A DNA stretch of 58,641 bases, from assembly GCA_018065415.1 (NCBI GenBank), contig JAGHTI010000018.1, positions 1 through 58,641 of the forward strand, read 5' to 3'. The notes beneath the pieces were generated by a model, which saw only the letters and a program-made list of their open reading frames with translations, made no database searches and was not told where the DNA came from. The DNA is from Candidatus Equicola stercoris (GTDB lineage: Bacteria > Bacteroidota > Bacteroidia > Bacteroidales > Bacteroidaceae). Shown here in pieces: positions 3,117 through 57,824 of this stretch (positions are counted from its first letter, which is position 1; the number at the start of each line of letters is the position of its first letter). The position numbers and the translations under genes were made by a program.

Positions 3117-4808
3117 ATGAAGAAAAAGATTATCGTAATCAGTTTGTTGCTGTTTGTATGCAGTGTCACGTCTGCGGCTGTCATCTATGTGACTAAAGAT
3201 GGAGATATTGCAAGTGCTGTACGGACGGCTCGTGAGATGCACAGGCTCGCCGAAGTGGGGGCACAGGAAAACATTGACATCATGCTTGAGGGAAATGAAT
3301 ATGTGTTGCATCAACCATTGTATCTGCGTCAGGAGGATAGTTATATCACGTTGAAAGGTAATAATGCCCGAATAAGCGGCAAGGTTGGCATATCATCTTG
3401 GACAAAAGAAGGAAAGTTGTGGGTGGCAGATGCTCCACGACTGGATGGCAGACCTTTGATGATAAGGCAATTGTGGGTAAACGGTAAGAAGGCTTTGCGT
3501 TCAACGCAGTTTGGTGAGTATAAGTTGGAACGTATGCTTGACTTCAACAAGACAGCATGCAGCATAACAATACCGACTCCACAAAATCTGAAAAGGTTGC
3601 AACAAGAACCAGTTTTGGAGATGCTCGTTCACCAGAGATGGGCAATAGCAATACTGCGTGTGAAGAGTATCGAACAGGATAAGATGGACAAGGATAGGAC
3701 GGTGGTGAAGTTTGCTGAGCCAGAGTCTTATCTAGAGTTTTCGCACCCATGGCCACAACCCGTGATAGGCGGTGAGAAGGGAAACTCTTCATTCTGTCTG
3801 CAAAATGCTTTGTGCCTTGTTGATGAACCAGGAGAATGGTATGAAAGTCCTGAAGGTAAGATATATTATTATCCAAAAGCCGATGAAACCATGAAAAATA
3901 CTGATATTGTGGCTGCACAGACAGAACAATTACTGATGATTCAAGGTACGCGTTTCGGTAAGGTAAAAAATATAAATATTGAGGGAATAAATTTTGAATA
4001 TGCAGCATGGAACAGACCTTCAGATTTTGGCCATGTGACATTGCAGGGAGGTTTCCCATTGATAGATGCTTACAAACTGGAAAAGGAAGGACTTCCTTGG
4101 GATAAAGATTTGGAAAATCAGGCGTGGATAGAACGTCCTGTAGCTGCCGTATGTGTTGAATGGGGAGAAAATATCAATATCAACAAGTGTTATTTCTCGC
4201 ATCTTGGAGCAACGGCTCTCGATTTGAAATACGCTGTAACCGACTGTACGATACAAGGTAGTAGGTTTGAAGATATAGGTGGTACTGCCATTCTTGCAGG
4301 ATGGTTCGGCGAAGGTACTGAAGTGCACATCCCATATAAACAGAGAGATGAAGAGTTTACATCAAAGATAAATATCCAAAGTAACAAAATCAATGATGCA
4401 ACGAATGAAGACTGGGGTACTGTGGGCATAGGACTTGGCTATGTGCGTGACTGTAATGTGAACGGAAATCGTGTCAGTCGTGTAAACTATTCTGGGATAT
4501 GCGTCGGTTGGGGATGGACATCGCAGGATACTGGTATGAGAAATAACTGTATCTTGGGAAATGAGGTGTCGGACTTTGCACGTATGCTTTACGATGCTGG
4601 CGGTATCTACACCCTCAGCAATCAACCAGGGTCGGAGATATCAAACAACAACATTGACAAACTGGGTGTTGCTCCGTATGCAACTAATGATCGTGGTTTT
4701 TACATCTATCTTGATGCGAAGACAGATGGATTTACTATTGAAAACAACTGGTGCCCGGAACCGAAGTTCGGTGATAACCATCCGGGTCCTAATATAATTT
4801 GGAAATGA
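3117..4808 (+). CDS. Secreted right-handed parallel beta-helix protein, GH141-like
   Basis: Probable carbohydrate-active enzyme exported to the periplasm or surface. The 563-residue product begins with a signal peptide (MKKKIIVISLLLFVCSVTSA, cleaved near residue 20). The rest has the layout of GH141-type beta-helix glycosidases: an N-terminal stretch with LEGNEYVLHQPLYL and ISGKVGISSW, the RQLWVNGKKALRS segment, then repeated short beta-helix coils (for example NININKCYFSHLGATALDL and EDIGGTAILAG). Known GH141 members act on alpha-L-fucose or xylan linkages; the substrate here is not readable from sequence. It overlaps the next gene by ATGA, and that partner is a GH31 alpha-xylosidase-like enzyme, which suggests a shared plant-glycan substrate. 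Confidence 0.7.
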   Translation: MKKKIIVISLLLFVCSVTSAAVIYVTKDGDIASAVRTAREMHRLAEVGAQENIDIMLEGNEYVLHQPLYLRQEDSYITLKGNNARISGKVGISSWTKEGKLWVADAPRLDGRPLMIRQLWVNGKKALRSTQFGEYKLERMLDFNKTACSITIPTPQNLKRLQQEPVLEMLVHQRWAIAILRVKSIEQDKMDKDRTVVKFAEPESYLEFSHPWPQPVIGGEKGNSSFCLQNALCLVDEPGEWYESPEGKIYYYPKADETMKNTDIVAAQTEQLLMIQGTRFGKVKNINIEGINFEYAAWNRPSDFGHVTLQGGFPLIDAYKLEKEGLPWDKDLENQAWIERPVAAVCVEWGENININKCYFSHLGATALDLKYAVTDCTIQGSRFEDIGGTAILAGWFGEGTEVHIPYKQRDEEFTSKINIQSNKINDATNEDWGTVGIGLGYVRDCNVNGNRVSRVNYSGICVGWGWTSQDTGMRNNCILGNEVSDFARMLYDAGGIYTLSNQPGSEISNNNIDKLGVAPYATNDRGFYIYLDAKTDGFTIENNWCPEPKFGDNHPGPNIIWK

Positions 4809-7084
4809 AAATAACAAACTATCATCTGTTCGATTTCCTCGATTTTGATCCAGACTATGGACGCGAGGAATCACTATGGAAGGCTTATAAGCCAACAAAG
4901 GTATATGAGAAAAATGGAGATATTTGCATAGACGTGCCGTTCCAGAAACAGAAACAGTCTAATGAGATGGAAGCAGACTTCCAGTATAAGCAGGAAGTCT
5001 ATACATTGATATTACGTCAGTATGGTGATAAGATTATTCGCCTTTTCATCGACTTTATGGATGATGATAACAATACCACTCCGAGTGAAGAAAGTGCGAT
5101 GTTGCAGATGAATAAGTCATTGTGCAAACAACCACTGACACTAATGCAGTTAGGGGCTGCAGAAAATGGCAAGTCGGATGGATGGATAGTATATTCCAAA
5201 GATGGAAAGCAACGTGCAATAATAAATATTCGCGAAGTAACTATTGACCACTGGAGCGACCTACAACCAGCACCACAGGAGACACTTGACATACGGTTGT
5301 TCCCAGATGGTAAAAAGGAAATACGTCTTGCAGCTTATGACCATTTCTCCCCGCCACGTTATGATGCTCTGCCATTGGCTTTCTGTAAGTTGGGAAATGA
5401 TAATGAGAGAGCTACAATATCATTTGAGTCAAAGCCTGATGAGTGTTTTGTCGGTACTGGTGAACGTTTTATGAAGATGGACTTGAGCGGTCAGACATTC
5501 TATCTGAAGAACCAAGATGGACAAGGCGTGAATAACAGACGTACATATAAGAATATACCTTTTTACATATCAAGCAGGATGTATGGCTGTTTTTATCATA
5601 CAAGTTCCAAATCAAAACTCTCATTGGCAGGACACAGTACACGTTCTGTTCAGTTCCTGAGCAACTATGCATCTTTGGATGTCTTCCTTATTGGTGGTGA
5701 TAATGTAGAAGAGATAATACGCGGATATAGAGATTTGACAGGTTATCCAACGATGCCACCTCTGTGGAGTTTTGGTGTGTGGATGAGTCGCATGTCATAT
5801 TTTGAAGCAAAAGAGATTATGGAAATATGTAATCAGTTGCGAACAGAACATTACCCTTGTGATGTGATTCATATTGATACAGGGTGGTTCAAGACAGACT
5901 GGTTATGCGAATGGAAATTCAACGAGACACGTTTCCCTAATCCTCAACAATTCATACATGACCTATACGAAATGGGATTCAAAACCTCATTATGGCAGTT
6001 GCCTTATGTCGCAGAAAACGCAGAACAGATAGATGAGGCACGTGAAAATGATTATATCGCCCCATTGACACATAAGGTCGTATCAAATGGATCTAATTTT
6101 TCAAATCTTGATTATGCGGGAACTATCGACTTTACATATCCAGAGGCAACGGCATGGTATAAGGGGTTGTTGCGTGAACTTCTTTCGATGGGGGTAAAAT
6201 GTATCAAGGCAGATTTTGGAGAAAACATACATACGGATGCGTCGTATAAAGGATTGGATTCAGAAAGACTGCAGAATTTATATGCTTTGTTGTATCAAAA
6301 GGCAGTCTTTGAGGTTACCAAAGATGTAGCAGGAGAAGGTATCGCTTGGTCGCGTGCAGCATGGGCAGGATGTCAGCGTTATCCTCTACATTGGGGTGGT
6401 GACAGTGCTTCAACTTGGGATGGAATGGCAGGCTCATTAAAAGGAGGTTTGCATTTTAATCTGTCGGGATTTGCTTTTTGGAGTCATGATGTTCCAGGGT
6501 TCCATACATTGCCAAACTTCATGAATTCCATCGTTGATGATGATGTATATGTGAGATGGACACAGTTTGGGGTGTTTACCTCACACATTAGATACCATGG
6601 TACGAATAAACGTGAACCATGGCATTATCCGAATGTTGCGGATATAGTGAAACGTTGGTGGAAGTTGCGTTATGCCTTGATACCTTATATATTACGTGAA
6701 AGCAAAAAGGCAACACGAAGTGGCTCTACACTTATGCAGGCACTAATATACCAATATCCAGAAGACAAGATGTGTTGGCATATTGATGATGAATATTTCT
6801 TCGGCAATGACTTCCTTGTTGCACCAGTGATGAATTCAGAAAATAAGCGTGACATCTATTTGCCGAAGGGTGAATGGATTGATTTCTTCAATGGGGAACT
6901 TATCGTCTCTGATGGAATGTGGATAAAGAAGGAAAACATTGCTTTGGAAGCAATGCCGGTATATGTGAGAAAGGGTGCAGAAATACCTATATATCCTTTG
7001 CCTGTAGATTGCACAGATCAGATGGATATGGATAAAACGGAAATTCTTAAAATAGATGATGAATTCAGTGGATATAGATTATGA
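4805..7084 (+). CDS. GH31 family glycosidase, alpha-xylosidase-like (YicI type)
   Basis: Retaining alpha-glycosidase. The 759-residue product has an N-terminal beta-sandwich, the GH31 barrel and C-terminal beta domains. The nucleophile motif KADFGE (Asp470) resembles KTDFGE of E. coli alpha-xylosidase YicI, and the acid/base is Asp533 in HWGGDSAS, matching HWGGD in YicI; LSGFAFWSHDVPGF is also shared with that branch. There is no signal peptide, so it is probably cytoplasmic and acts on imported oligosaccharides. The chosen ATG at 4805 gives a four-base ATGA overlap with the upstream gene; an in-frame TTG at 4799 would add two residues. Alpha-glucosidase activity cannot be excluded. Confidence 0.88.
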   Translation: MKITNYHLFDFLDFDPDYGREESLWKAYKPTKVYEKNGDICIDVPFQKQKQSNEMEADFQYKQEVYTLILRQYGDKIIRLFIDFMDDDNNTTPSEESAMLQMNKSLCKQPLTLMQLGAAENGKSDGWIVYSKDGKQRAIINIREVTIDHWSDLQPAPQETLDIRLFPDGKKEIRLAAYDHFSPPRYDALPLAFCKLGNDNERATISFESKPDECFVGTGERFMKMDLSGQTFYLKNQDGQGVNNRRTYKNIPFYISSRMYGCFYHTSSKSKLSLAGHSTRSVQFLSNYASLDVFLIGGDNVEEIIRGYRDLTGYPTMPPLWSFGVWMSRMSYFEAKEIMEICNQLRTEHYPCDVIHIDTGWFKTDWLCEWKFNETRFPNPQQFIHDLYEMGFKTSLWQLPYVAENAEQIDEARENDYIAPLTHKVVSNGSNFSNLDYAGTIDFTYPEATAWYKGLLRELLSMGVKCIKADFGENIHTDASYKGLDSERLQNLYALLYQKAVFEVTKDVAGEGIAWSRAAWAGCQRYPLHWGGDSASTWDGMAGSLKGGLHFNLSGFAFWSHDVPGFHTLPNFMNSIVDDDVYVRWTQFGVFTSHIRYHGTNKREPWHYPNVADIVKRWWKLRYALIPYILRESKKATRSGSTLMQALIYQYPEDKMCWHIDDEYFFGNDFLVAPVMNSENKRDIYLPKGEWIDFFNGELIVSDGMWIKKENIALEAMPVYVRKGAEIPIYPLPVDCTDQMDMDKTEILKIDDEFSGYRL

Positions 7085-7644
7085 TTATCCCTTCTGCATA
7101 CTTCGCACCAATACATTATTATCATATTCTTAGCACTAATGCAGAGGTTATGATAGAGCAATATGACAACTATCAGAAACAAACTTTCCGTAATCGTTGT
7201 CAGATTGCTGGTGCTAATGGTGTGCAGATGTTGACGGTGCCGATACAGAAATATGATGGAGAAAAATGCCTGATGAAGGATGTTAAAATTAGTGACCATA
7301 ATAATTGGCAACATAATCATTGGATGGCAATAGTCTCAGCTTATGGAAATTCTCCTTTCTTTGAGTTTTATGCGGATGATATACTACGATTTTTTACGAA
7401 GAAATGGGAGTATTTGTATGATTTTAATATGGAGATTACTATTGCTTTATGTAGGTTGCTTGATATTGATTGCCGTCTGTTAGCTTCATCATGTTTCCAT
7501 AATGACTTTGAACAGGCTGTTGAGGAGACTGTGATATCAAAACCGTATTATCAGGTATATAAGGAAAAGTATGGTTTTATCGCAAATCTCAGTATTCTTG
7601 ATTTACTGTTCAATATGGGAAACGAAAGTGCTTTTTATCTATGA
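7081..7644 (+). CDS. WbqC-family protein
   Basis: The 187-residue product matches the WbqC-like family: it starts IIPSAYFAPIHYYHIL, followed by the IEQYDNYQKQTFRNRC segment, the TVPIQK strand and the HWMAIVSAYGNSPFF stretch that is diagnostic of the family. WbqC-like proteins occur in O-antigen or glycan gene clusters and as orphan genes in Bacteroidetes; the biochemical role is unknown to me. Both ends overlap the neighbours by ATGA, so it is translated as part of the 3117-8330 operon. Confidence 0.85.
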   Translation: MIIPSAYFAPIHYYHILSTNAEVMIEQYDNYQKQTFRNRCQIAGANGVQMLTVPIQKYDGEKCLMKDVKISDHNNWQHNHWMAIVSAYGNSPFFEFYADDILRFFTKKWEYLYDFNMEITIALCRLLDIDCRLLASSCFHNDFEQAVEETVISKPYYQVYKEKYGFIANLSILDLLFNMGNESAFYL

Positions 7645-8330
7645 TATATAAAGAATTGAAATATGACGATCTCCATATTACTTTGAAGGAGGTATATGAG
7701 TCGATGCAATATGGAGATAATGTCCCAGATGAGTCGGTACGTACGGAGACAGATGCAGTCATTGCTGAAATTAGTACTTTTCTGAGACCGCGATTTTGTG
7801 TCATCAATGTTGAAGGTGTACTAAATACAGAAACGAATACTTTGAATGTTGTGGGCAGTGATGGTTTATCTAATATCACTTTTGATATCGGAAAGATAAT
7901 TGCCAGACAATTGAAAGGGTCAGAAAGTTATGCTCTCTTCATTGCCACTAGCGGAATGGAATTTCAAAACTATCAGGATAAGTTGAAAAGGGAGGGTGAT
8001 ATTGTCCGTATGTTTATTGCGGATTCAATAGGCAGTCTTTTGGCTGAGAAATGTGCGGATCAGATGGAGCTTGTACTTGAAGGAAACCATACGAATCGAT
8101 TCTCTCCAGGGTATTGTGGATGGCATGTTTGTCAACAGCAAATCTTGTTCCCTTTATTTCAAGGTAACACATGTGGAGTGACACTTACCCCAAGTAGCCT
8201 TATGGTACCGATAAAATCCGTCAGTGGGATAATAGGAATAGGCGATAACGTGCGCAAGCTTGAATATACTTGCGGACTATGCGATTTTGATAAGTGCTAT
8301 AAAAAGAAATTTGTGAAAAAAATTAATTGA
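7641..8330 (+). CDS. Stand-alone MetH activation-domain-like protein
   Basis: The 229-residue product resembles the C-terminal activation domain of cobalamin-dependent methionine synthase, which binds S-adenosylmethionine and helps reductive remethylation of B12. The key stretch is RFSPGYCGWHVCQQQILFPLF, corresponding to the R-x-(S/A)PGY motif, followed by TPSSLMVPIKSVSGIIGIG. A Cys-rich tail (CGLCDFDKC, that is C-x2-C-x4-C) follows and could bind metal. In full-length MetH this domain is fused to the catalytic part; here it stands alone, so it may serve a MetH encoded elsewhere that lacks it. It overlaps the convergent dnaA by eight bases at its 3' end. Confidence 0.8.
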   Translation: MIYKELKYDDLHITLKEVYESMQYGDNVPDESVRTETDAVIAEISTFLRPRFCVINVEGVLNTETNTLNVVGSDGLSNITFDIGKIIARQLKGSESYALFIATSGMEFQNYQDKLKREGDIVRMFIADSIGSLLAEKCADQMELVLEGNHTNRFSPGYCGWHVCQQQILFPLFQGNTCGVTLTPSSLMVPIKSVSGIIGIGDNVRKLEYTCGLCDFDKCYKKKFVKKIN

Positions 8331-9660
8331 GAATAGTTTCCATTTGCTCTATCTCTGCAGCAAAGACTTTGTTCTCCTTAATCAATGTCCGTATTTTGTC
8401 ACAGCTATGCAAGACTGTGGTATGATCGCGATTTGCAATACGGCGTCCTATCTGTGATTTTGATAATGATGTGTAACGATCGGCGAGGAACATAGAAACC
8501 TGTCTTGCTTGTACTAATTCCTGCTTGCGACTCTTTCCACTAATTTCATCAATAGAGACTTTATAATGATTACATACAGTGTTAAGAATGTCGTCAATAG
8601 TGGTTTCTTTCTTCTCTGTGCGGACATACGTCTTTACTAAATTTTTTACAGTACTTAACGTGATGTCTTCTTTGTAAACTAATGACATTGCAATGAGAGA
8701 ATTTAATATTCCTTCAATGTCACGTACACTACCATTGGCTGTGTTGGCTACAAAGTCAATGACTTCTTCAGATATTTTTAATTTTGATGTTTGAGACTTG
8801 CTTGTAAGGATGTCTTTGCATAACTGAACATCTGGTTTTTCCAGTTCTGCAACGAGTCCGCATTTCAAACGCGTAAGCAGTCGGTCGGTCATCCCTTTTA
8901 GATCAACAGGTGGACGATCGCTTGCGAGGATTATCCTCTTTCCATTTAAGAATAGATGATTGAATATGTGGAAAAATATTTCCTGTGTTTTAACAGCAGA
9001 AAGCCATTCTTGAATGTCATCAATGATGAGTACATCTATAGTCTGATAGAAGTGGATAAAGTCATTTGTGGTGTTATGCAATACCGCATCGGTATATTGT
9101 ACTTGGAAAATGCGAGCACTGACATATAATATTCTCAAATTTGAGTCCATCTCATGCATTTTCATACCTATGGCATTGATGAGATGTGTCTTGCCACATC
9201 CTGATGGACCGAATATGAAGAATGGATTGAACTGTGTTTTACTTGTGTTTTCTGCTATAGACATGCCAATAGCACGTGGCATTCTGTTACAACGACCAGC
9301 AATGAAATTATCGAATGTCCTTGTCTTATCAAGATAAGAGGTAAAGGTTGTTTTATCTTCAGCAACTTTTTTTGCTTTTTTGTCTTCTTGAATTGTATCA
9401 ATGGATGCCTTTGTATGATACATTAGGCGTATGCCTTTACCAAAATGATTTGTGAGAACTTTGCGCAACAACTCCAAATAATGTTCCTCTATATAATCCT
9501 TTATATATATATTTTGAACATTGAGGCACAGAACATTTGTCTCTTGGTTATAAGAGTTGAATGTCAGAGAAGTGAACCATGATTGGTATTTATCTTCTCC
9601 GATTTGTCTCTTGATTAAATCAAGACAATTATTCCATAATTTCTGTGCGTTGTTTATCAT
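8323..9660 (-). CDS. dnaA: Chromosomal replication initiator protein DnaA
   Basis: AAA+ initiator that binds DnaA boxes and melts the replication origin. Domain I begins MINNAQKLWNNCLDLIKRQ; the AAA domain has Walker A GPSGCGKT at 151-158 and Walker B VLIIDDIQ; the C-terminal DNA-binding domain IV has the signature RQVSMFLADRYTSLSKSQIGR and RDHTTVLHSC. I placed the start at 9660 (445 residues), not at the in-frame ATG at 9762, because the alignment with other DnaA N-termini begins here and the promoter lies inside the extension. The gene is alone, tail to tail with the operon to its left; no origin could be recognised next to it. Confidence 0.95.
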   Translation of the reverse strand: MINNAQKLWNNCLDLIKRQIGEDKYQSWFTSLTFNSYNQETNVLCLNVQNIYIKDYIEEHYLELLRKVLTNHFGKGIRLMYHTKASIDTIQEDKKAKKVAEDKTTFTSYLDKTRTFDNFIAGRCNRMPRAIGMSIAENTSKTQFNPFFIFGPSGCGKTHLINAIGMKMHEMDSNLRILYVSARIFQVQYTDAVLHNTTNDFIHFYQTIDVLIIDDIQEWLSAVKTQEIFFHIFNHLFLNGKRIILASDRPPVDLKGMTDRLLTRLKCGLVAELEKPDVQLCKDILTSKSQTSKLKISEEVIDFVANTANGSVRDIEGILNSLIAMSLVYKEDITLSTVKNLVKTYVRTEKKETTIDDILNTVCNHYKVSIDEISGKSRKQELVQARQVSMFLADRYTSLSKSQIGRRIANRDHTTVLHSCDKIRTLIKENKVFAAEIEQMETILN

Positions 9661-47733: not shown

Positions 47734-49824
47734 ATGAACAAAAAATTTACACTTTTGACACTGATGGCAATCTTTGTTGCCTCAGCACAGGTATTACATG
47801 CACAAGGACCAGTAGGATTTTGCAACTACTATGATGGAATCAATGGTATCACTGGTGGTATGAATGGTCCTACCGTCCATGTAACTACAATCGAAGATCT
47901 TCAGACTTATCTAAAGTCGAACGATCCTTATACTGTTATCCTTGATGCCGACCTTACTGGTAGAGGACTCACACGAGGAAGAGAACTCGTTTCAGTAGGA
48001 AGTAACAAAACTCTCATTGGTGGTGGTTCGGGAGCCGCACTTCACGGCATTGGTCTTGACATCAATAACCAGCAGAACATCATTATCCGAAACCTCACAA
48101 TTCATCATGCAAACCCTGATGCAATAGCCGGACGTAATACTCATCATGTGTGGGTTGACCACTGCGATATATACAGTACCGACGAGCCTGATAAGGAGGA
48201 TTGGGACGGACTTATCGACATGACTGTTGGTTCGTCATATATAACTGTATCCTATTGCTACATTCATGACCATCATAAATGTTGTCTGTTGAGTTCTGGT
48301 ACACAGCATTTTGAGGACTACGGCAAGAACCGTACTACTTATCATCATAATGCGTTCCGTCTCACCGACCAACGTAACCCTCGTATCGGATATGGTTTGG
48401 GACATGTCTTTAACAACTTCTATGAGAATATTGGTAGTTATTGCATTGGTGGCTTCACACAGGCACGTATCGTGGCTGAAAGCAATTATTTTAGTGAAAC
48501 GGCTAACAGCCCATTGAGCCAAATGTATGCAACGGAAGGTCCTGATGACTATAGCTTTGCCTTCTTTGAGAATCGCAAAAACTATAGTGTTGTACCTATC
48601 AAAGAGATTACCTACGATAAACTTGATTTCGAACCATCTGACTGGTATGATTATTCCTTCATTCTTGATGAAGCTTCTACTGTGAATAGCATTTATCCTT
48701 CAAAAGTGGGACCTCAGCCAAATATTGACAAAGAGGTCATCCTGTGGCCGGGTAATGGTGCTAAGGATCAGCCAATACTAATCTCATTGCTGTGGAGCAA
48801 GTTGGAGAATGAAACAGAGAGTTGGTTCATCATAGGTACTTCGGAGGATAATATGGAAAGGCGTACTATTGACGAGAACAACCTTCTCACTCCTGCTACT
48901 ACATATCTATGGCGCGTTTGTACCAAGATAGGAGATGATGTTATCAATTCACCTATTTATCGTTTTACTACCGCTGATGTAAAACCTGCAACACCTTATC
49001 CTGCTGATGGCGACACAAATGCTAAACTAAGAGAGGCGAAAAAGCAGACTGCAATGGCAGACCCAATGACTCTAAGATGGCAACCAGCATGCGACGTTGA
49101 TCATTACGAGGTAACAGTATGGGATGAGACGGGCAATGCGATAGTTGACCATGTTATTACTAATACCAATTCTTATAATCCTGGTACACTTAACTATGGC
49201 GAACGTTATACATGGCAAGTAAATACTGTTCGTGCTCTGACGAAAGAGACAGCAGAAGGCGACATCTGGAGCTTCTCTAGTCCAAGAGTTGATATAAAAG
49301 AGGGACGTACTGAATTCGAACATCTTAGCCGTAGTGGAATATCATACATACAACCTATGAATGAGAGCATTTGGTTTGCTGCTTCTAACGACTCTATTTC
49401 TCTCGGTGACCGTGGACCAGGCTCTCTCTCTGGTGTGTTCAATGGTACGCCAGGTGTATACTCTATCGCTGTGACTTACCTCGAAGGTTCTAGAGGCTCA
49501 GATAGATATAGGGTTTCTGTCAACGATGTGACAGTTGAAGAATGGAAGAGCAACTCATCAACAACGGCACTCGCAACTCGAAAACTCGCTAAAACTGTTG
49601 ATTTAATTGAGGGAGCCCAGATACGTATAGACTTCTACACTACCAGTGGACAGCGAGCACGCATGGACTGTATGGATTTAACTTATGAAGCACCTTCTGG
49701 AATCAGACAGGTTTCTGTTGAGTCTTCTGCTGAAACGCTCTACGATCTTCTCGGTCGCAAGATTACTGCTCCAAAGGCAGGTCAGATATACATCATCAAG
49801 GGCAAGAAGTTCATGTGCAGATAA
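47734..49824 (+). CDS. Secreted pectate lyase (PL1 family) with accessory domains
   Basis: Cuts homogalacturonan by beta-elimination. The 696-residue product has a signal peptide (about 1-23), a PL1 beta-helix (about 24-330) with VWVDHCDIYSTDEPDKEDWDG and LIDMTVGSSYITVSYC, and the catalytic region YHHNAFRLTDQRNPRIGYG. Two fibronectin-III-like domains follow (about 330-415 and 420-515), then a beta-sandwich like a carbohydrate-binding module (about 520-655), and a C-terminal tail YDLLGRKITAPKAGQIYIIKGKK of the type shared by three neighbouring proteins. It is the only plus-strand gene of the glycan region and ends at a bidirectional terminator. Confidence 0.9.
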   Translation: MNKKFTLLTLMAIFVASAQVLHAQGPVGFCNYYDGINGITGGMNGPTVHVTTIEDLQTYLKSNDPYTVILDADLTGRGLTRGRELVSVGSNKTLIGGGSGAALHGIGLDINNQQNIIIRNLTIHHANPDAIAGRNTHHVWVDHCDIYSTDEPDKEDWDGLIDMTVGSSYITVSYCYIHDHHKCCLLSSGTQHFEDYGKNRTTYHHNAFRLTDQRNPRIGYGLGHVFNNFYENIGSYCIGGFTQARIVAESNYFSETANSPLSQMYATEGPDDYSFAFFENRKNYSVVPIKEITYDKLDFEPSDWYDYSFILDEASTVNSIYPSKVGPQPNIDKEVILWPGNGAKDQPILISLLWSKLENETESWFIIGTSEDNMERRTIDENNLLTPATTYLWRVCTKIGDDVINSPIYRFTTADVKPATPYPADGDTNAKLREAKKQTAMADPMTLRWQPACDVDHYEVTVWDETGNAIVDHVITNTNSYNPGTLNYGERYTWQVNTVRALTKETAEGDIWSFSSPRVDIKEGRTEFEHLSRSGISYIQPMNESIWFAASNDSISLGDRGPGSLSGVFNGTPGVYSIAVTYLEGSRGSDRYRVSVNDVTVEEWKSNSSTTALATRKLAKTVDLIEGAQIRIDFYTTSGQRARMDCMDLTYEAPSGIRQVSVESSAETLYDLLGRKITAPKAGQIYIIKGKKFMCR

Positions 49825-49919: not shown

Positions 49920-50714
49920 TTAATGTCTTATATACTTGCGACCATTCTTAATAGTAATGCCACGATAGTTTTTATCGATAACCTGACCATTGAGATTGTA
50001 AAGGTTGCGATCAATAAAGTTTGATTTTTCTTCTTTAATTACCTGAAGGCCAGATGCTGTGTTTGTCCAGCAGCGAAGACCGAGACAGATAACATTATTG
50101 CCACTTATAACAAAAGAAAACTCCTTCTCATAAGGATGGCTACTGAAGTCAAGAGAAGCAAATGTGTAACCTGCTTCATGACAAGCTAATGTCTGAGCTT
50201 CACAACCAGCTTCGTTGCAACCACATGGGTCAACAGGATAAACTGCGTTCTCCTTGATGTATGGATTTGTTGTAAAAGGCTCTGGGTCATCATCATGGTT
50301 TCTTATACCAGGACCAATTGGGTCAGCCCACTCTGGATCACCCCATTCATCTTCTCCGTAAGAATAAAGATAATCCCACTTACTACCATTTACGAAACCA
50401 AACATTTCAATCTTAGTAAGAAAAAGTCCTTCAGGAATAGACAAACGTACCTTATCATTCTTTGATACCTTCCATCCGTCAAGCCATACCACGTTGTTAT
50501 ACCAAGAGACACGATTTGAGCCATCAACAATTTGGTCGCCACTACCCGTCTCAAGCTTTAACCCAGTATTGGTAAATGTGAGCCAGTAATCACCCCCATC
50601 TTGCTTGAGTTCTTTGTAGTTTTTGCGAGTAAGCTCAACACCGTTATCAGGAGTTTGAGCGTATGCACATGTAAGTGTGGCAGAAATGAATAAAAGAGTA
50701 AAAAGTTTTTTCAT
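49920..50714 (-). CDS. Secreted protein of unknown function, paralogue of the 57084 gene
   Basis: I do not recognise a family. The 264-residue product has a signal peptide (about 1-19, ending AYA-Q). It shares a conserved core with the 57084-57824 product: TGSGDQ, a Trp-rich strand, KVSKNDK, YSYGEDEWGDPEWADPIG, YPVDPCG, FVISGNN and LRCW, suggesting a secreted beta-sandwich that could bind glycan. Unlike its paralogue it has an extra Cys-containing segment (CGCNEAGCEAQTLACHEAG). It ends YNLNGQVIDKNYRGITIKNG, the tail type shared with the neighbours. It lies past the susD terminator and shows no TAnnTTTG before it, so it may depend on read-through. Confidence 0.75.
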   Translation of the reverse strand: MKKLFTLLFISATLTCAYAQTPDNGVELTRKNYKELKQDGGDYWLTFTNTGLKLETGSGDQIVDGSNRVSWYNNVVWLDGWKVSKNDKVRLSIPEGLFLTKIEMFGFVNGSKWDYLYSYGEDEWGDPEWADPIGPGIRNHDDDPEPFTTNPYIKENAVYPVDPCGCNEAGCEAQTLACHEAGYTFASLDFSSHPYEKEFSFVISGNNVICLGLRCWTNTASGLQVIKEEKSNFIDRNLYNLNGQVIDKNYRGITIKNGRKYIRH

Positions 50715-50756
50715 AATTTATGTGTTATAATAGTTAATAAGAATTATAAGTTGATA

Positions 50757-50787
50757 AAAAAGGAAGGTTCAGAAAACCTTCCTTTTT
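50757..50787 (-). terminator. Intrinsic terminator after the SusD gene
   Basis: AAAAAGGAAGGTT (50757-50769) and AACCTTCCTTTTT (50775-50787) form a 13-base stem with a five-base loop, immediately after the SusD stop on the minus strand. It may attenuate rather than fully block transcription into the 49920 gene. Confidence 0.85.
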
Positions 50788-50802
50788 ATGTTAGGTCAAG
50801 GA

Positions 50803-52647
50803 TTAATATCCTGGATTCTGGTATCCTGAACCATTCTCAAGAGATTCGATCTCTGAAGAGTTGATAGGTCTCAGATAATACTCATCCTTGAATGTTGTAA
50901 TCTGTGGATTGAATTTAGCAATACGCTCAGCTAATGCGCGGAAACGTTTCAACGTCGTCCAACGGTTCCACTCTCCACACATCTCAAGAGCATATTCGTC
51001 AAGAAGCACGTCTGCGTCAATAGCAGTCAGATCCATGCTGTGATTGTGCCCGATACAAGCGCGGTTACGAATAGCATTGAGCATCTTCAACGCATCTCCA
51101 GTCTGATTAAGACGCCATGCTGCTTCGGCTGCCAACAGGTAAGTCTCTCCTAAACGATAGATGATACAATCTGCATACGAATAAGGCTTTGATGCGTTAG
51201 AACCAGCATAGTATTTAGGAGTGTTCATCTTCTTGAGAGAAGGGAAGAAACGCAGAGGCTGAGTCTTATCTGCATAATTGTCGTCAATATTATATGTAGC
51301 ATAACGACGAGAATTTCTATCAGCTTCTGTCAACTTCTTCTTTGAGATATATACACAAGTGTCGTTCAATGGAATATAGAACTGGTCGTTGTCAACGCGA
51401 GTAAGGTCAAGGCCATAACGATTTGCATCGGCTGGCGTCCACACATAAACCTGCTGACCAGCATAAGGACCTGTTGTTGCCTTCTTCTTTCTGCGGTTTG
51501 CATAATAAGTGTCGCGGAAGAATGCTTTGTAACGCCCATCGTTATCTTTGAACAAATCAAGGAAATCCTTCGAAGGACACAGACGGCAACTACCATTAGC
51601 AATAGGAGTGATAGGATAACCATTCAAAGATGTGCTATAGTCAGGTGTCAAGCACTCCATATATATACCTTCAGAATTGTTGTTGTAAGCCTCAAACTGC
51701 TTCCATACTCGATTGAAGTAAGCCTGACGAGGGTTGTACTCCATAATAGAGGAGTGGGTAACAACAAATAAAGCCTCTGCATTAGCCTTGTTGTTGTTTT
51801 CGTCAAACACATTTTCAATCTCAGGATATAATTTTACGTTGAAGCTGCTTGCATTATTTATCAAATAGTTGGCTGCATTAAAAGCTTCTTTGTAGAGCTC
51901 TTTTGCCTCTTCCTGAGTAAGTGGAGTTGCACCACATTTGCCATCTGTATATGAAGCATAAGTCAAACAAGCCTTTGCATACAGGTGATAAGCTGCAGCT
52001 TTAATGATGTGACCTGTTACATTTTGCTTTACAGGAAGGTCTTCCATAGCAATTGCAAGGTCGGAAAGAATAACATCATAGAACTCGTTGATGCTGCTGC
52101 AAGGAAGAGTTGTCAAAGCTTCTTCTGTAGGAGCAGTTGGGAGATATTTCCCTCCGTAATACTCTACAATGTTAAACAAGCTGTGTGCACGAAGGAAACG
52201 AGCTTCAGCAGTCAATTCTGCAATCCTCTCTTTGCTCAAGCCTTGAACTTTCTCAGCATAAGCAATAACGGCATTACAGCTGTTCAAGGTTGCATAGAAT
52301 CCTTGATATGCTTCATAGAACATATACACTTCAGGACCCATATCTTGGTAACGAATACACTTACTGAAGTTTCCATTTGAGCCACCCTTTACAGGGTCTT
52401 GCCAAATGTCTGTACCTGATTCCGATCCAAAAATATATGTATCTTCACCCTGTCCATAAACAAGACGAACTAGTGGGACATAGCAAGAATTTACCAGCTT
52501 TTCAAATCCTTCTGCTGTTGTCCATTCTTTATCTGTAGATATTGCAGAAAGATTCTCTTCATCGAGTGAACAACTACCAAACATTATGATAGTGCAAAGG
52601 ATGCATATTATACCATTAATTTTGTTCATAACATTATATTTTTTCAT
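50803..52647 (-). CDS. RagB/SusD-family surface glycan-binding lipoprotein
   Basis: Cell-surface lipoprotein that captures a polysaccharide or peptide and hands it to its SusC partner. The 614-residue product has a lipoprotein signal with Cys26 in FGSC, followed by SLDEEN, an acidic stretch like the surface-export signal of Bacteroidetes lipoproteins. SusD landmarks follow: LNSCNAVIAYAEK, ELTAEARFLRAHSLFNIVEYYGG (the SusD helix), and near the C-terminus YRLGETYLLAAEAAWRLNQ and LNAIRNRA. I chose the Met at 52647 because an AGGGAGG lies eight bases upstream; a second Met follows at 52629. It starts 18 bases after the SusC stop. Confidence 0.94.
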   Translation of the reverse strand: MKKYNVMNKINGIICILCTIIMFGSCSLDEENLSAISTDKEWTTAEGFEKLVNSCYVPLVRLVYGQGEDTYIFGSESGTDIWQDPVKGGSNGNFSKCIRYQDMGPEVYMFYEAYQGFYATLNSCNAVIAYAEKVQGLSKERIAELTAEARFLRAHSLFNIVEYYGGKYLPTAPTEEALTTLPCSSINEFYDVILSDLAIAMEDLPVKQNVTGHIIKAAAYHLYAKACLTYASYTDGKCGATPLTQEEAKELYKEAFNAANYLINNASSFNVKLYPEIENVFDENNNKANAEALFVVTHSSIMEYNPRQAYFNRVWKQFEAYNNNSEGIYMECLTPDYSTSLNGYPITPIANGSCRLCPSKDFLDLFKDNDGRYKAFFRDTYYANRRKKKATTGPYAGQQVYVWTPADANRYGLDLTRVDNDQFYIPLNDTCVYISKKKLTEADRNSRRYATYNIDDNYADKTQPLRFFPSLKKMNTPKYYAGSNASKPYSYADCIIYRLGETYLLAAEAAWRLNQTGDALKMLNAIRNRACIGHNHSMDLTAIDADVLLDEYALEMCGEWNRWTTLKRFRALAERIAKFNPQITTFKDEYYLRPINSSEIESLENGSGYQNPGY

Positions 52648-52655
52648 GTTAATTG

Positions 52656-52661
52656 CCTCCC
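52656..52661 (-). promoter_or_regulatory. Shine-Dalgarno-like site of the SusD gene
   Basis: Minus strand GGGAGG, eight bases before the ATG at 52647. It favours that Met over the one six codons later. Confidence 0.55.
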
Positions 52662-52665
52662 TATA

Positions 52666-55600
52666 TTAGAATGTTAAGTTAACACCGAATACAAACTGCT
52701 TTGACAATGGTGCATCATCGTCATTGCCACCCTTTTCAGGGTCATAATTTTTAACATATTCGTTCTTAGTCCAAATGAAAGGATTAGAAGTTGTAAAATA
52801 GACACGAGCCTTTTCGATGTTAAGCGAACGCAAAACATTCTTTGGCAAAGTGTAACCAAAAGTCAAATTCTTCAATTTAATGTAAGAACCATCAAAGTAA
52901 TTTATAGAACTGCTACCCTGATATGTATCTTGTGAAGATCCAGAATCTGGACGTGGATAGCGAGCATCTTGATTCTCTGGTGTGTAGTAGTCACAAACAG
53001 CTGGAGTTGGGTTGATACCATCGTTTCTATACCAACCTGTTATACCATATTGTAAAGTATAATCCCAACGAGCAATGAGTTGGAAACTCAAATCAAACCA
53101 TTTATATGTGAAGAAGTTTGACAATGAACCTATCCACTTTGGTGAACCATTACCAATAATCTGATAGTCATCGGCATTATAAACACCATCGTCGTTAGCA
53201 TCAAGAATATGAATTGTACCTGGCTTCTGGTTGTATCTTGCAGCTGCTTCTGCCTGATCTTCCTTCCAAATACCTTCGTATTTATACATATAGTATGTAT
53301 GTACAGGCTGACCCTCAATCAGATAATAGTCGTTGAACTGCAATGGGTTTGCAGATGTTGTTTCAATAACCTCTTCCTTATTGGTTGAGAAAGACAAAGA
53401 CGTTGACCATGTGAAATTCTTTGTAAGAATGTTACGACTGTTGATAGCCAACTCAAGACCGGTGTTGCGTGTCTTACCGATATTCTGCCAAATAGAGAAT
53501 GTGGTGAAATCAACTCCGTTCATAGTACCACCTGTTGCTGCAGGCAATGCTCTCTGATAAAGCAAATCTTTTGTATCTGTACGGTACCAGTCAATAGCAA
53601 AGTCAATGCGGTTGTTGAGAACAGCAGCATCAAGACCGATATCCCAAGAATAAGATTTTTCCCATCCAAGACCAAGGTTTGCAATACTTGTTGAATATGT
53701 ACTATATGGCTGACCTATCTCTTGGAAACCAAGCATACCTGCTTGAGAATATGCCAATGTACCGTATGCACCAAGACCATCATTACCTGTTACACCATAA
53801 CTTACACGGAGTTTCAAGTTGTCGAGCCAATTTCTTGTTGATGCCATAAATGGTTCATCAGAAATACGCCAGCCTACTGCAACAGCAGGGAAGCTATCCC
53901 ACTTGTGTCCATCTGAAAGTTTAGAACTTCCATCCCAACGATTTGAGAGAGTCAACAGATAACGGCTCTTGTAACTATACATAGCACGAATGATGTATGA
54001 CATCATTTGTGTTTGAGTATATGAAGATGCTACAGAAGGAGTTCCTGTACCAGCACCAAGATTATGATATGCGTAGTCGTCAGTGTCAAATCCATGACCA
54101 ATTGCATTTGAGCCTTCAGTACGTCCCTTAGACCATTCTGTTACACCAGTAAACGTAAGATGATGGTCGTTCTTTATATCCAGATTATATGTCAAAATAT
54201 TCTGCCACTTGTAGTTATAAGTGAAGGTATTTGGAGTCTCTGCCGTAGATTGTCCGTCTTGCAAACCAGTCCATGAGTGAATGCCCTGATAAATACCTTG
54301 TTTCATATTGCGGAAATAACCACCAAGAACTGTCTTGTAAGAGAATCCTTTGAATGGATTTAATTCCAGATATCCTTGAGGAGCAATACTGAGTGTCTTA
54401 ATGTTGTTGACATACTGACCCTGTCCCATATCAGTAAGAGGGGTAGGGATAGTGCCGTCACCTTCAATTGGATAATAGTTGATGCTTCCATCCTCATTGT
54501 ATGGTATTCCTACAGGAGGTGTACACATCATACGATTCCATATACGTGAGTTGCGTTTGTCATTATCTCCATACATTGCATAGAGGTTGAACCCGTATTT
54601 TACAATCTTATTAGGGGTGAAATCTAAACGTGTACGTAAAGAATAGCGTTTCAGTTCGTCGCCTTTCAATGTTCCCTGAGTGTCAGTATAGTTCAATGAA
54701 GCAAAGGCATTAACCTTGTCGTTTGCGTAAGATGTAGAAAGATCGTATTCTTGCATAACGCCTGTTCTTGAACCTTCCTCAAACCAATTTACCCAATTAC
54801 CATTATCTATGAGTGTCTGATAATGAGCTGGGAAAAGAGTTGCATCATCTTCAGGACTTTTCCAGTTGCCTGATGTTCTCATGGCTTCTCTGCGGAAGTT
54901 GATATAGTCTTCTCCTGTGCGAACTTCTGGGAAAGATGTCTCCTTGTTGAAACCTACATATGCATTGAGATTTATTTCAAACTTGTCTTTCTTTGCATTT
55001 TTTGTAGTGACGAGGATGACACCATTTGCACCAGCAGCACCATAGATAGCAGTAGAAGAAGCATCCTTCAAAACTTCGATGCTCTCGATATCATTAGGGT
55101 TGAGTTCATCGTATGAACCTTCCATGCCATCGATGATGAACAAAGGAGCATTGTTACCATAAATAGAACGGTTACCACGCAATACAAGGTTCATCTTAGC
55201 ACCAACCTCACCATTAGAACGGGTGATGTCAAAACCTGCTACCTGACCTTGAATGGCTTCCATAATGTTTGTTGTAGGAGTGCGGACAATGTCTTCTGCC
55301 TTAACAGAAGAAACGGCACCAGTAAGGTCACGCTTCTTTATTGAACCATAACCGATTACCACAACATCGTCAAGATCATAACCCTGATTCTTCAAAACAA
55401 TGTTCAAATTGTTTTTACCAATTGGATTAACTTCTTGACTTTCCATTCCAACATAAGAAACAACAATGTTCTTCTTGTTGGAAATTTTTAGTGTAAAATT
55501 ACCGTCAAAGTCTGTAACTGTACCATTAGAAGTGCCTTTTTCCAAAATAGAAGCACCAATAATTGGCTCACCATTACTATCCTTAACAGTACCACTAATA

Positions 55601-55671
55601 GACTGCGCTGAAATGCCATTTGCAACAAAGACAAATGCTACTATCAGCAAGATTCGAACTGTTTTTAGCAT
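52666..55671 (-). CDS. SusC/RagA-family TonB-linked outer-membrane transporter
   Basis: Imports oligosaccharides through the outer membrane with TonB energy, under the lid formed by SusD. The 1001-residue product has a signal peptide (about 1-22), a carboxypeptidase-D-regulatory-like beta domain (SISGTVKDSNGEPIIGASILEKG onward, about 24-95), the SusC signature DVVVIGYGSIKKRDLTGAVSSV, the plug with SIYGNNAPLFIIDGMEG and VLKDASSTAIYGAAGANGVILVTTK, and a 22-strand-type barrel ending in KQFVFGVNLTF. There is no N-terminal STN domain, so it is not of the kind that signals to an anti-sigma factor. Length is normal. Confidence 0.96.
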   Translation of the reverse strand: MLKTVRILLIVAFVFVANGISAQSISGTVKDSNGEPIIGASILEKGTSNGTVTDFDGNFTLKISNKKNIVVSYVGMESQEVNPIGKNNLNIVLKNQGYDLDDVVVIGYGSIKKRDLTGAVSSVKAEDIVRTPTTNIMEAIQGQVAGFDITRSNGEVGAKMNLVLRGNRSIYGNNAPLFIIDGMEGSYDELNPNDIESIEVLKDASSTAIYGAAGANGVILVTTKNAKKDKFEINLNAYVGFNKETSFPEVRTGEDYINFRREAMRTSGNWKSPEDDATLFPAHYQTLIDNGNWVNWFEEGSRTGVMQEYDLSTSYANDKVNAFASLNYTDTQGTLKGDELKRYSLRTRLDFTPNKIVKYGFNLYAMYGDNDKRNSRIWNRMMCTPPVGIPYNEDGSINYYPIEGDGTIPTPLTDMGQGQYVNNIKTLSIAPQGYLELNPFKGFSYKTVLGGYFRNMKQGIYQGIHSWTGLQDGQSTAETPNTFTYNYKWQNILTYNLDIKNDHHLTFTGVTEWSKGRTEGSNAIGHGFDTDDYAYHNLGAGTGTPSVASSYTQTQMMSYIIRAMYSYKSRYLLTLSNRWDGSSKLSDGHKWDSFPAVAVGWRISDEPFMASTRNWLDNLKLRVSYGVTGNDGLGAYGTLAYSQAGMLGFQEIGQPYSTYSTSIANLGLGWEKSYSWDIGLDAAVLNNRIDFAIDWYRTDTKDLLYQRALPAATGGTMNGVDFTTFSIWQNIGKTRNTGLELAINSRNILTKNFTWSTSLSFSTNKEEVIETTSANPLQFNDYYLIEGQPVHTYYMYKYEGIWKEDQAEAAARYNQKPGTIHILDANDDGVYNADDYQIIGNGSPKWIGSLSNFFTYKWFDLSFQLIARWDYTLQYGITGWYRNDGINPTPAVCDYYTPENQDARYPRPDSGSSQDTYQGSSSINYFDGSYIKLKNLTFGYTLPKNVLRSLNIEKARVYFTTSNPFIWTKNEYVKNYDPEKGGNDDDAPLSKQFVFGVNLTF

Positions 55672-55701
55672 AATTTTTTAGTGTTTGTAGATTAAAAATA
55701 T

Positions 55702-57045
55702 TTATTTGGTTAAAATGTATTTTTTATTATTTTTCACAACGATTCCTTTAAAACCATTAGGGATTGAGTTATTTGTGTTTAATCTTTGTCCGTTAAGATT
55801 ATAAAAAGAATCATTATTGTTGCTAATATGGGATGACGTATGAATATCTTCAATGCTGGATGTTAACATTAATGATTGCAAAGGCACTCGTGTGAACATT
55901 ACATCTTCTTTGTTTTGTGAGTATCCTACATAAAGCCAATCTCCATCTATCATTGCTTTCGGATATGCATATCCAACACCTTTACAATCTGTATATTTCT
56001 TTGTTGGTAGTTCATTCGTTGAGCGCAACATGAATGCTTTTGTAAAAGTTGTACCATCTTTGCTTAAAGAAATAGCAAGAGGAAAGCGATTACTACTATT
56101 GACAGGATTGTTTACGATGAAGCATGTTCCATCTGGCAGATTTCCGGCACATTGTTTGGATTTTGAGTCTGGCATATTACTAAGATAGGCTTTTGTCCAA
56201 TTCTCACCATTATCGGTACTGGATGCTCCCATTTTATAATATGTGCCTTTTTGGTCACGGAATATCATTACTAATGTACCATCGTTTTTTACATATACAC
56301 TAGGTTCTAATTCTCGTGATTGTCCACCATTAGTCGTTGGAATAAAGTTGCCTCTTTTCCACCCTCTTACTCCAGATGGGTCATCTGTATAAATGGGCTG
56401 AATATAAATGCCTTTTTGTCCTGTTACTGGGCCATAATGAAAATGTGCTGCTCCTATAATTCTTCCATCTGCCAATTTGTGCGGGTCTTGTTCAAATATA
56501 CCTTCAAGTCTATTGCCATCAGCCATCATAACATCTTGGGGCTCTGTCCAATGTTCACCATCTGTGCTTTCGACATAACGAGTATATCCCCATTTTGATT
56601 CGTTTTTAGGAGTTGGCCATGTGTTGATATAGCCTACAAGTTTATCTTGTGTGACTAGCCATCCTCCAGAACTGCAATAGCCATCGTCAATAGTAGGACA
56701 TAGCACTTTCGGCTTTGACCATGTTATTCCATCGTCTTCACTTACAGCATATGCCACCCAAGTGTCAGGTGTGTCTTCTGTTATTGCTGAACTTTGCCAA
56801 GTGCAATATAGTTTGCCTTTGAATGAAGCCATTACAACTCCATTGACAAAGTGGTCGGTCGTGTCGCTAGGTGAAAAAACATAGATGTTTTCTAAACCTG
56901 GCGCATATTCCAAACCGAGCATGTTTTTGTCATTTTGGTTAAAAAGCCCGTCAATAATCTTAAAAGGTGCAGATTGTGAATAAACAAGAGTATTGCTAGC
57001 ACAAAATAGTGCAAGCAATACTCTGGATATTCTTTTTGTATTCAT
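55702..57045 (-). CDS. Secreted BNR/Asp-box beta-propeller protein, possible glycosidase
   Basis: Probable secreted beta-propeller. The 447-residue product has a signal peptide (about 1-23) and several Asp-box repeats of the S-x-D-x-G-x-x-W type (SEDDGITW near 103, STDGEHW near 165, STDNGENW near 275, and a weaker SKDGTTF). Such folds occur in sialidases and in several other glycoside hydrolase families. The N-terminal F/Y-R-I-P motif of true sialidases is not visible, so I do not call the activity. The tail YNLNGQRLNTNNSIPNGFKG is of the same type as in three neighbours. It lies 38 bases after the 57084 gene and 30 bases before SusC. Confidence 0.75.
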   Translation of the reverse strand: MNTKRISRVLLALFCASNTLVYSQSAPFKIIDGLFNQNDKNMLGLEYAPGLENIYVFSPSDTTDHFVNGVVMASFKGKLYCTWQSSAITEDTPDTWVAYAVSEDDGITWSKPKVLCPTIDDGYCSSGGWLVTQDKLVGYINTWPTPKNESKWGYTRYVESTDGEHWTEPQDVMMADGNRLEGIFEQDPHKLADGRIIGAAHFHYGPVTGQKGIYIQPIYTDDPSGVRGWKRGNFIPTTNGGQSRELEPSVYVKNDGTLVMIFRDQKGTYYKMGASSTDNGENWTKAYLSNMPDSKSKQCAGNLPDGTCFIVNNPVNSSNRFPLAISLSKDGTTFTKAFMLRSTNELPTKKYTDCKGVGYAYPKAMIDGDWLYVGYSQNKEDVMFTRVPLQSLMLTSSIEDIHTSSHISNNNDSFYNLNGQRLNTNNSIPNGFKGIVVKNNKKYILTK

Positions 57046-57083
57046 ACTTCGAATATATTGTACTCAAAATATGATTCTCTAAT

Positions 57084-57824
57084 TTACTTTACAATGTATT
57101 TTCTATTACCCTTCAGTACTACTCCCTTATAGTTGCTCTTAACAACTTGTCCAGCAACGTTGTAGCATTCAGAATTATTTGCATTTACGTCTGCTTTAGT
57201 CTCATTAATTCCAGAAGGCTCTTGTAGCCAACAGCGAAGTTTGAATGCACAAGTGTTATTACCACTTATGACAAATGTAAACTTGCCTTCATAAGGAGTG
57301 CCAAAAGTCTTAGTAAAGAAAGTATAACCAGCGTTTTCTTTTGTCCATTCTGTCTTTGCACCATCAGTAACGTATCCACAAGGATCTACTGGAAATACTG
57401 CATTTTGGATTGTAGCATTATCTTTTACTTCGCCACCGATTGGATCTACCCACTCTGGATCTCCCCACTCATCTTCACCGTAACTCAATACGTAATCCCA
57501 ATTGTCTCCATTTGAAAAACCAAATGCTTCAATTCTGTAAAGCTTTGCTCCATCAGGCAAATAAATGTTGATCTTGTCATTCTTTGAAACCTTGTAGCCA
57601 AGGAAGGTTACATCATTATTCCAATGACGTGCAGTTACATCCGTACTTCCTGCTGTTTGGTCACCACTACCAGTGTCAAGAGTCAAATCACAGTTTGTGA
57701 AAGAAAGAAGACCATCTGGTGTAACTTCTTTTTGTGTTTCTGGAGCTAAAAGAACGAACTCATCTTGAGCATACATACCACCACAGAATGCAATGGCAAA
57801 CAAAAAAGTAAAAATTTTTTTCAT
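57084..57824 (-). CDS. Secreted protein of unknown function, paralogue of the 49920 gene
   Basis: First gene of the locus. I chose the ATG at 57824 (MKKIFTFLFAIAFCGGMYAQ, a clean signal peptide); the frame extends upstream but the promoter lies there. The 246-residue product shares with the 49920 product the segments TGSGDQ, KVSKNDKI, YGEDEWGDPEWVDPIG, AVFPVDPCG, FVISGNN and LRCW, and lacks the Cys-rich insert. It ends YNVAGQVVKSNYKGVVLKG, the tail shared with neighbours. The conserved acidic/Trp motif suggests ligand or calcium binding, but this is inference. The promoter at 57878-57908 probably drives this gene, the BNR gene, SusC and SusD together. Confidence 0.78.
   Translation of the reverse strand: MKKIFTFLFAIAFCGGMYAQDEFVLLAPETQKEVTPDGLLSFTNCDLTLDTGSGDQTAGSTDVTARHWNNDVTFLGYKVSKNDKINIYLPDGAKLYRIEAFGFSNGDNWDYVLSYGEDEWGDPEWVDPIGGEVKDNATIQNAVFPVDPCGYVTDGAKTEWTKENAGYTFFTKTFGTPYEGKFTFVISGNNTCAFKLRCWLQEPSGINETKADVNANNSECYNVAGQVVKSNYKGVVLKGNRKYIVK

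Follow-up and report, generated by a model that had tools for sequence, protein, structure and literature searches.

Paralogous proteins with type IX-like tails at the two ends of a SusCD locus in Candidatus Equicola stercoris are candidate pectin-binding modules

What is the role of two small, similar proteins encoded at the opposite ends of a SusCD uptake locus? The locus lies in a 58,641-nt stretch of Candidatus Equicola stercoris DNA (Bacteroidaceae; assembly GCA_018065415.1, contig JAGHTI010000018.1, positions 1 to 58,641 of the forward strand), hereafter the window. A minus-strand run reads X1-BNR-SusC-SusD-X2, with intergenic gaps of 38, 30, 18 and 88 bases; coordinates and strands bear out an earlier note, made from the sequence alone, which had placed the two proteins X1 and X2 at the ends of a BNR and SusCD locus. 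A gene for a PL1-type pectate lyase, convergent to the run, lies downstream and adjoins X2 (Table 1). We propose, with a probability of roughly 0.6, that X1 and X2 reach the cell surface through type IX secretion and act there as non-catalytic, pectin-binding modules that pass pectin fragments on to SusCD.

In a BLASTP alignment of 265 columns X1 and X2 are 47% identical (E 2e-69), far beyond chance, and the motifs YGEDEWGDPEW, FPVDPCG/YPVDPCG, FVISGNN and LRCW are present in both translations, as expected of the clear paralogues they had been taken for. The Cys-rich insert ascribed to one copy did not hold up: DPCGCNEAGCEAQTLACHEAGY, the Cys-rich stretch of X2, replaces a loop of X1 that is one residue shorter, and the true insert, of about 11 residues (DDDPEPFTTNP), lies upstream of this stretch and has no Cys. 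Profile searches with the window proteins and 47 relatives assigned the core to no Pfam, NCBIfam or PDB sequence family, consistent with the earlier failure to recognize one, and a literature search judged by titles and abstract openings found no description of the family. By their sequences, X1 and X2 are members of a small, unnamed protein family.

A single-protein search gave 14 relatives and a profile search 47 related proteins; P0012-P0014 of the former were kept out of the family because they share little beyond signal peptide and tail, and the short P0049-P0051 of the latter were left out of the alignment. The few relatives with organism names come from Prevotella or Prevotellaceae metagenome-assembled genomes, and 11 loci from the genome collection are labelled Prevotella, Prevotellaceae, Bacteroidales or Bacteroidaceae. 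The family is rare, occurring in 14 of 398 same-genus and 5 of 399 same-family genomes, many of them incomplete (each count includes the own genome and two doubtful matches, partial in the same-genus set). A tree built from 56 domain rows separates the X1 group from the X2 group, each in a clade of its own (support 100/96 and 100/98). Since each clade holds one of the two copies at locus L023, the duplication probably took place before this species and that of L023 diverged. The separate clades fit different roles for the two copies; they do not show the different ligands that had been suggested.

Member genes not fused to an enzyme were found at 15 loci (the window, L022-L032, L059, L067 and L068). 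Each pair of duplicates entered the count as a single locus: L020 and L024, L021 and L029, L060 and L028, and the matches in genomes G433, G273, G325 and probably G218 with L022, L023, L026 and L027, respectively. Matches in G432, G269, G588 and G601 cover the first 106-125 profile positions only and were excluded from the counts. SusC and SusD genes adjoin the member gene on the same strand in 13 of the 15 loci, so the non-fused homologues are not mostly found away from SusCD. Eleven of the 15 loci have a BNR homologue, which separates the member gene from SusC in the window and L022. The contig of L027 ends within the member gene; at L031, 20 kb of sequence contain no SusCD, and the member gene is apparently broken into two frames. 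The loci are not all independent, as L022 nearly duplicates the window and L026 and L030 are close. Pectin-type enzymes were recognized in 7 of the 15 loci, with part of the open reading frames scanned and some contigs short: PL1 in the window and L022, CE8 with a pectate-lyase-like gene in L024, the GH88 family in L025, two PL11-type enzymes with CE8 in L028, CE8 twice with a pectate lyase in L029, and CE8 in L059.

In 11 of the 13 SusCD loci SusC directly follows the member gene, with operon-like spacing, an arrangement that would also suit accessory parts of the SusCD complex that serve as a lid, in assembly or in protein-protein contacts without binding glycan. Against such a role, related domains occur in long proteins, some of them enzymes. 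In L055 a more distant X domain (residues 169-337) belongs to a 1444-amino-acid (aa) protein with a CE8 pectinesterase at residues 1034-1319, and in L054 and L056 distant X domains are found in 867- and 892-aa proteins encoded next to CE8-like genes; no SusCD was seen within 12-16 kb around these three. Apart from the L055 pectinesterase, the long proteins with the domain, those of L054 and L056 among them, measure 852-1113 aa. Tandem pairs of X domains occur in L026, L029 and L060, and two- and three-fold repeats are also seen in binding modules. We therefore regard a purely accessory function as improbable. In L068, from another genus of the same family, a 662-aa protein (6898-8886) carries three X domains in tandem and a type IX-like tail.

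The long-protein domains are related to the X core by hmmsearch (domain E-values of 1.5e-15 to 2e-25 in 20 long proteins) and by hhalign (99.8%, with 0.1% for a control region). Besides the L054, L055 and L056 proteins, these comprise 17 long relatives, of which 3 have PF01095. The related domain is thus a non-catalytic domain on a carbohydrate-active enzyme, as carbohydrate-binding modules (CBMs) are by definition, and X1 and X2 themselves stand alone without an attached enzyme.

The predicted structures of X1 and X2 are both all-beta, and the cores are putative beta-sandwiches like those of CBMs. Within the fold families listed by the structure search, the top-ranked solved structure for each is the carbohydrate-binding domain of a putative pectate lyase (8x8h / 8wc1, by PDB titles), the close known system here, at modest Z scores of 7.7 and 7.8. 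Conserved polar and aromatic residues (N82, W109, Y111, D147, Y167, N189 and N190), together with secretion and a place in a degradation locus, could also befit small enzymes such as lyases or esterases. The core, however, comprises about 185 all-beta residues with no recognized catalytic family, and none of the 20 long-protein domains, some of which already accompany a catalytic domain, has the D147-P148-C149 motif; an enzymatic function is highly improbable. GNNQ or GNVQ is kept in 19 of the 20. The earlier note had left a surface or secreted role open between glycan binding and catalysis. Locus context, the pectinesterase fusion of a related domain and the putatively CBM-like predicted fold support the former as a candidate role, and the lyase alternative found no support.

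The C-termini of X1 and X2 resemble short type IX secretion tails. X1, X2, BNR and PL1 share one kind of tail, which was detected at 40 places in the own genome (E 0.01). A cut-site-like G-I/L motif lies 40-43 residues from the end in X1, X2 and PL1 and was not found in the BNR tail. Of the 47 family rows, 38 end in a tail, 7 in a dockerin and 2 (P0017 and P0023) in neither; P0012 was in the scan for tail motifs and isoelectric points (pI) and is absent from this recount. The G-I/L motif occurs 40-43 residues from the end in 30 of the 38 tailed rows and is missing from 8, and the residue before it is T in 15, S in 5, A in 4 and another in 6. The Tyr and Gly of motif B are present in the aligned tails, whose C-terminus is basic. 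SprA, PorU and PorV scored over the cut-off in the own genome and were present in 6 of 6 genomes searched, this one included. A 2025 paper on Prevotella intermedia (PMC11969387) describes short signals, 40-51 residues long and cut at PT/GI, whose motif B conserves a Tyr and a Gly and whose motif E contains basic residues; according to its mass-spectrometry data, their cargo is cut and glycosylated. Our tails are alike in length, G-I/L motif, motif B residues, basic C-terminus and machinery, but unlike in motif D and in their cargo, here an unnamed domain encoded in an uptake locus. In G273, the genome of L023, 38 dockerin and 26 tail matches were found; no cohesin match was found in this genome, which is about 78% complete.

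Several observations weigh against the proposal. The GxY/GxN of motif D appears in only 8 of the 38 tailed rows and in neither X1 nor X2, and no Pfam or NCBIfam tail model matched X1, X2, BNR or PL1 at E 1. The X1 and X2 cores are acidic (pI 4.3 and 4.5), which disfavours direct binding of a polyanion and speaks against simple charge-driven capture of polygalacturonate. PMC9843283 describes BT0996-C of Bacteroides thetaiotaomicron as a pectin-binding module that binds polygalacturonate, is basic (pI 9.43) and forms part of an enzyme. By description, the likeness lies in a module serving pectin breakdown in a Bacteroidota species, and the X cores differ in being acidic and standalone.

Core acidity would sit more easily with ligands other than the pectin backbone, for example its neutral galactan or arabinan side chains, or a different polymer of the locus. 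CBM22, CBM32, CBM35, CBM6 and others score alike against the predicted structures, the BNR neighbour has a partial match to a beta-L-arabinobiosidase chain, and L027 and L031 carry other glycosidases with no recognized pectin enzyme, all of which lean the same way. The CE8 fusion and the CE8, PL1 and PL11 neighbours point instead to the backbone, and we consider a non-backbone ligand unlikely.

Pectin-binding modules at the surface would work as follows. X1 and X2 would leave the cell by type IX secretion, be cut at S/GI or S/GL and become attached to the surface; their cores would bind the pectic glycan acted on by the PL1- and CE8-type enzymes of the loci and concentrate its products for SusCD. 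The pair may in this way serve as the surface glycan-binding protein that replaces the usual lipoprotein partner of SusD. They are like SusE/SusF-kind surface lipoproteins in locus position, predicted secretion and lack of a catalytic family. Unlike these, the N-termini of X1 and X2, MKKIFTFLFAIAFCGGMYAQDEF and MKKLFTLLFISATLTCAYAQTPD, show by eye no Cys of a lipobox where cleavage is likely, after AQ (each signal peptide has a Cys inside), and the proteins have a type IX-like tail instead and no family match. A broader version, to which we give somewhat less than even odds, is that of a new CBM-like pectin-capture family in Prevotella-like bacteria, with a constant core and a swapped attachment (type IX tail, dockerin or pectinesterase fusion), whose operon member replaces the lipoprotein partner of SusD, so that SusCD is fed from cargo exported by another route.

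Table 1 Features of the window and putative lipoprotein genes that trail SusD in related loci
Feature	Position	Strand	Description
Gene X1	57084..57824	-	246 aa from ATG (mechanical open reading frame begins at an upstream TTG); signal peptide (by eye), core, C-terminal tail; first of run
X1 core domain	57213..57767	-	residues 20-204; predicted beta-sandwich
X1 putative short type IX secretion tail	57087..57212	-	42 residues from PS/GI; compared with short C-terminal domains of PMC11969387
BNR_2 beta-propeller protein	55702..57045	-	447 aa; PF13088 1.9e-48; PDB 5mqr part match 8.6e-12
BNR tail	55711-55821	-	same kind as X1/X2/PL1; without G-I/L cut-site motif
SusC-type TonB-dependent transporter	52666..55671	-	1001 aa; Plug + CarbopepD_reg_2
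SusD-type protein	50803..52647	-	614 aa; PF07980, PF14322; lipobox FGSC by eye
Gene X2	49920..50714	-	264 aa; signal peptide (by eye), core with Cys-rich loop, tail; last of run
X2 core domain	50052..50654	-	residues 21-221
X2 putative short type IX secretion tail	49923..50051	-	43 residues from AS/GL
Pectate lyase (PL1-type)	47734..49824	+	696 aa; PF00544 3.1e-35; best PDB match pectate lyase 7bbv 4.3e-37
PL1 tail	49699-49821	+	41 residues from PS/GI
SusD-trailing putative lipoprotein, L024	15971-16453		
SusD-trailing putative lipoprotein, L025	16031-16522		
SusD-trailing putative lipoprotein, L026	12025-12480		
SusD-trailing putative lipoprotein, L029	15822-16274		
SusD-trailing putative lipoprotein, L030	6353-6829		
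SusD-trailing putative lipoprotein, L032	10463-10936		
SusD-trailing putative lipoprotein, L059	14399-14878		
SusD-trailing putative lipoprotein, L068	1139-1630		

Other features of these loci were recorded alongside. The window SusC is 32-33% identical to the SusC proteins of other X loci, and the window BNR is similar to a portion of the BT_1020 propeller (PF24067 slightly below the cut-off; 5mqr as in Table 1). In L023 the SusD gene is split into two adjoining frames (4395-6238), by mutation or assembly error. Eight X loci carry, directly after SusD and in the place that X2 takes in the window, a gene for a 150-163-aa putative lipoprotein (lipobox by eye); these proteins are mutually 25-58% identical, those of L026 and L030 are identical over 151 residues, and the two that were scanned gave no Pfam match. 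Related proteins of 589-735 aa recur in L021 (1530-3584), L020 (12762-14531) and L054 (10045-12252); those of L020 and L021 had no Pfam match, and the L021 protein matches pectate lyase 9buj (E 5.8e-62).

Several candidate matches were rejected. A weak RTX-type Pfam match of X1 (E 0.061) was below the cut-off, leaving X1 with no Pfam match above it and no NCBIfam match, and the PDB sequence matches of X1 (E 0.16-0.91) were taken as chance. The sole PDB sequence match of the 47-row profile, 7jvi (E 1.6e-05), covers residues 795-844 of the 847 in that chain and was read as the shared tail, not the core. NCBIfam matches were located in 30 of the 47 members: CelK (best E 2.7e-07) and Omp28_seleno fall on the dockerin, and T9SS_DNase_Rie (best 0.00037), the PorU long form and the BT4411 hyaluronan-binding family (best 0.0071) fall within the N-terminal 36-111 residues, which are mostly signal peptide. 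The BT4411 match of P0021 (E 0.016) extends to residue 111, into the core, and was considered too weak for use. Pfam CBM models gave no match in the 47 members at E 0.01, and the genome matches L003-L008, L011-L017 and L019 cover mostly the tail and, of the core, no more than its last part.

The use of pectin by Prevotella of the rumen and gut is important, and the surface capture step there is mostly inferred from Bacteroides, in which lipoproteins perform surface glycan capture. The type IX-like tail and the link to pectin are points beyond the earlier note. If our proposal is true, X1 and X2 would represent a new family of glycan-binding domains with a named substrate guess, and type IX secretion would be tied to SusCD uptake within one operon. 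As two small soluble domains, the X1 and X2 cores would make the idea directly testable.
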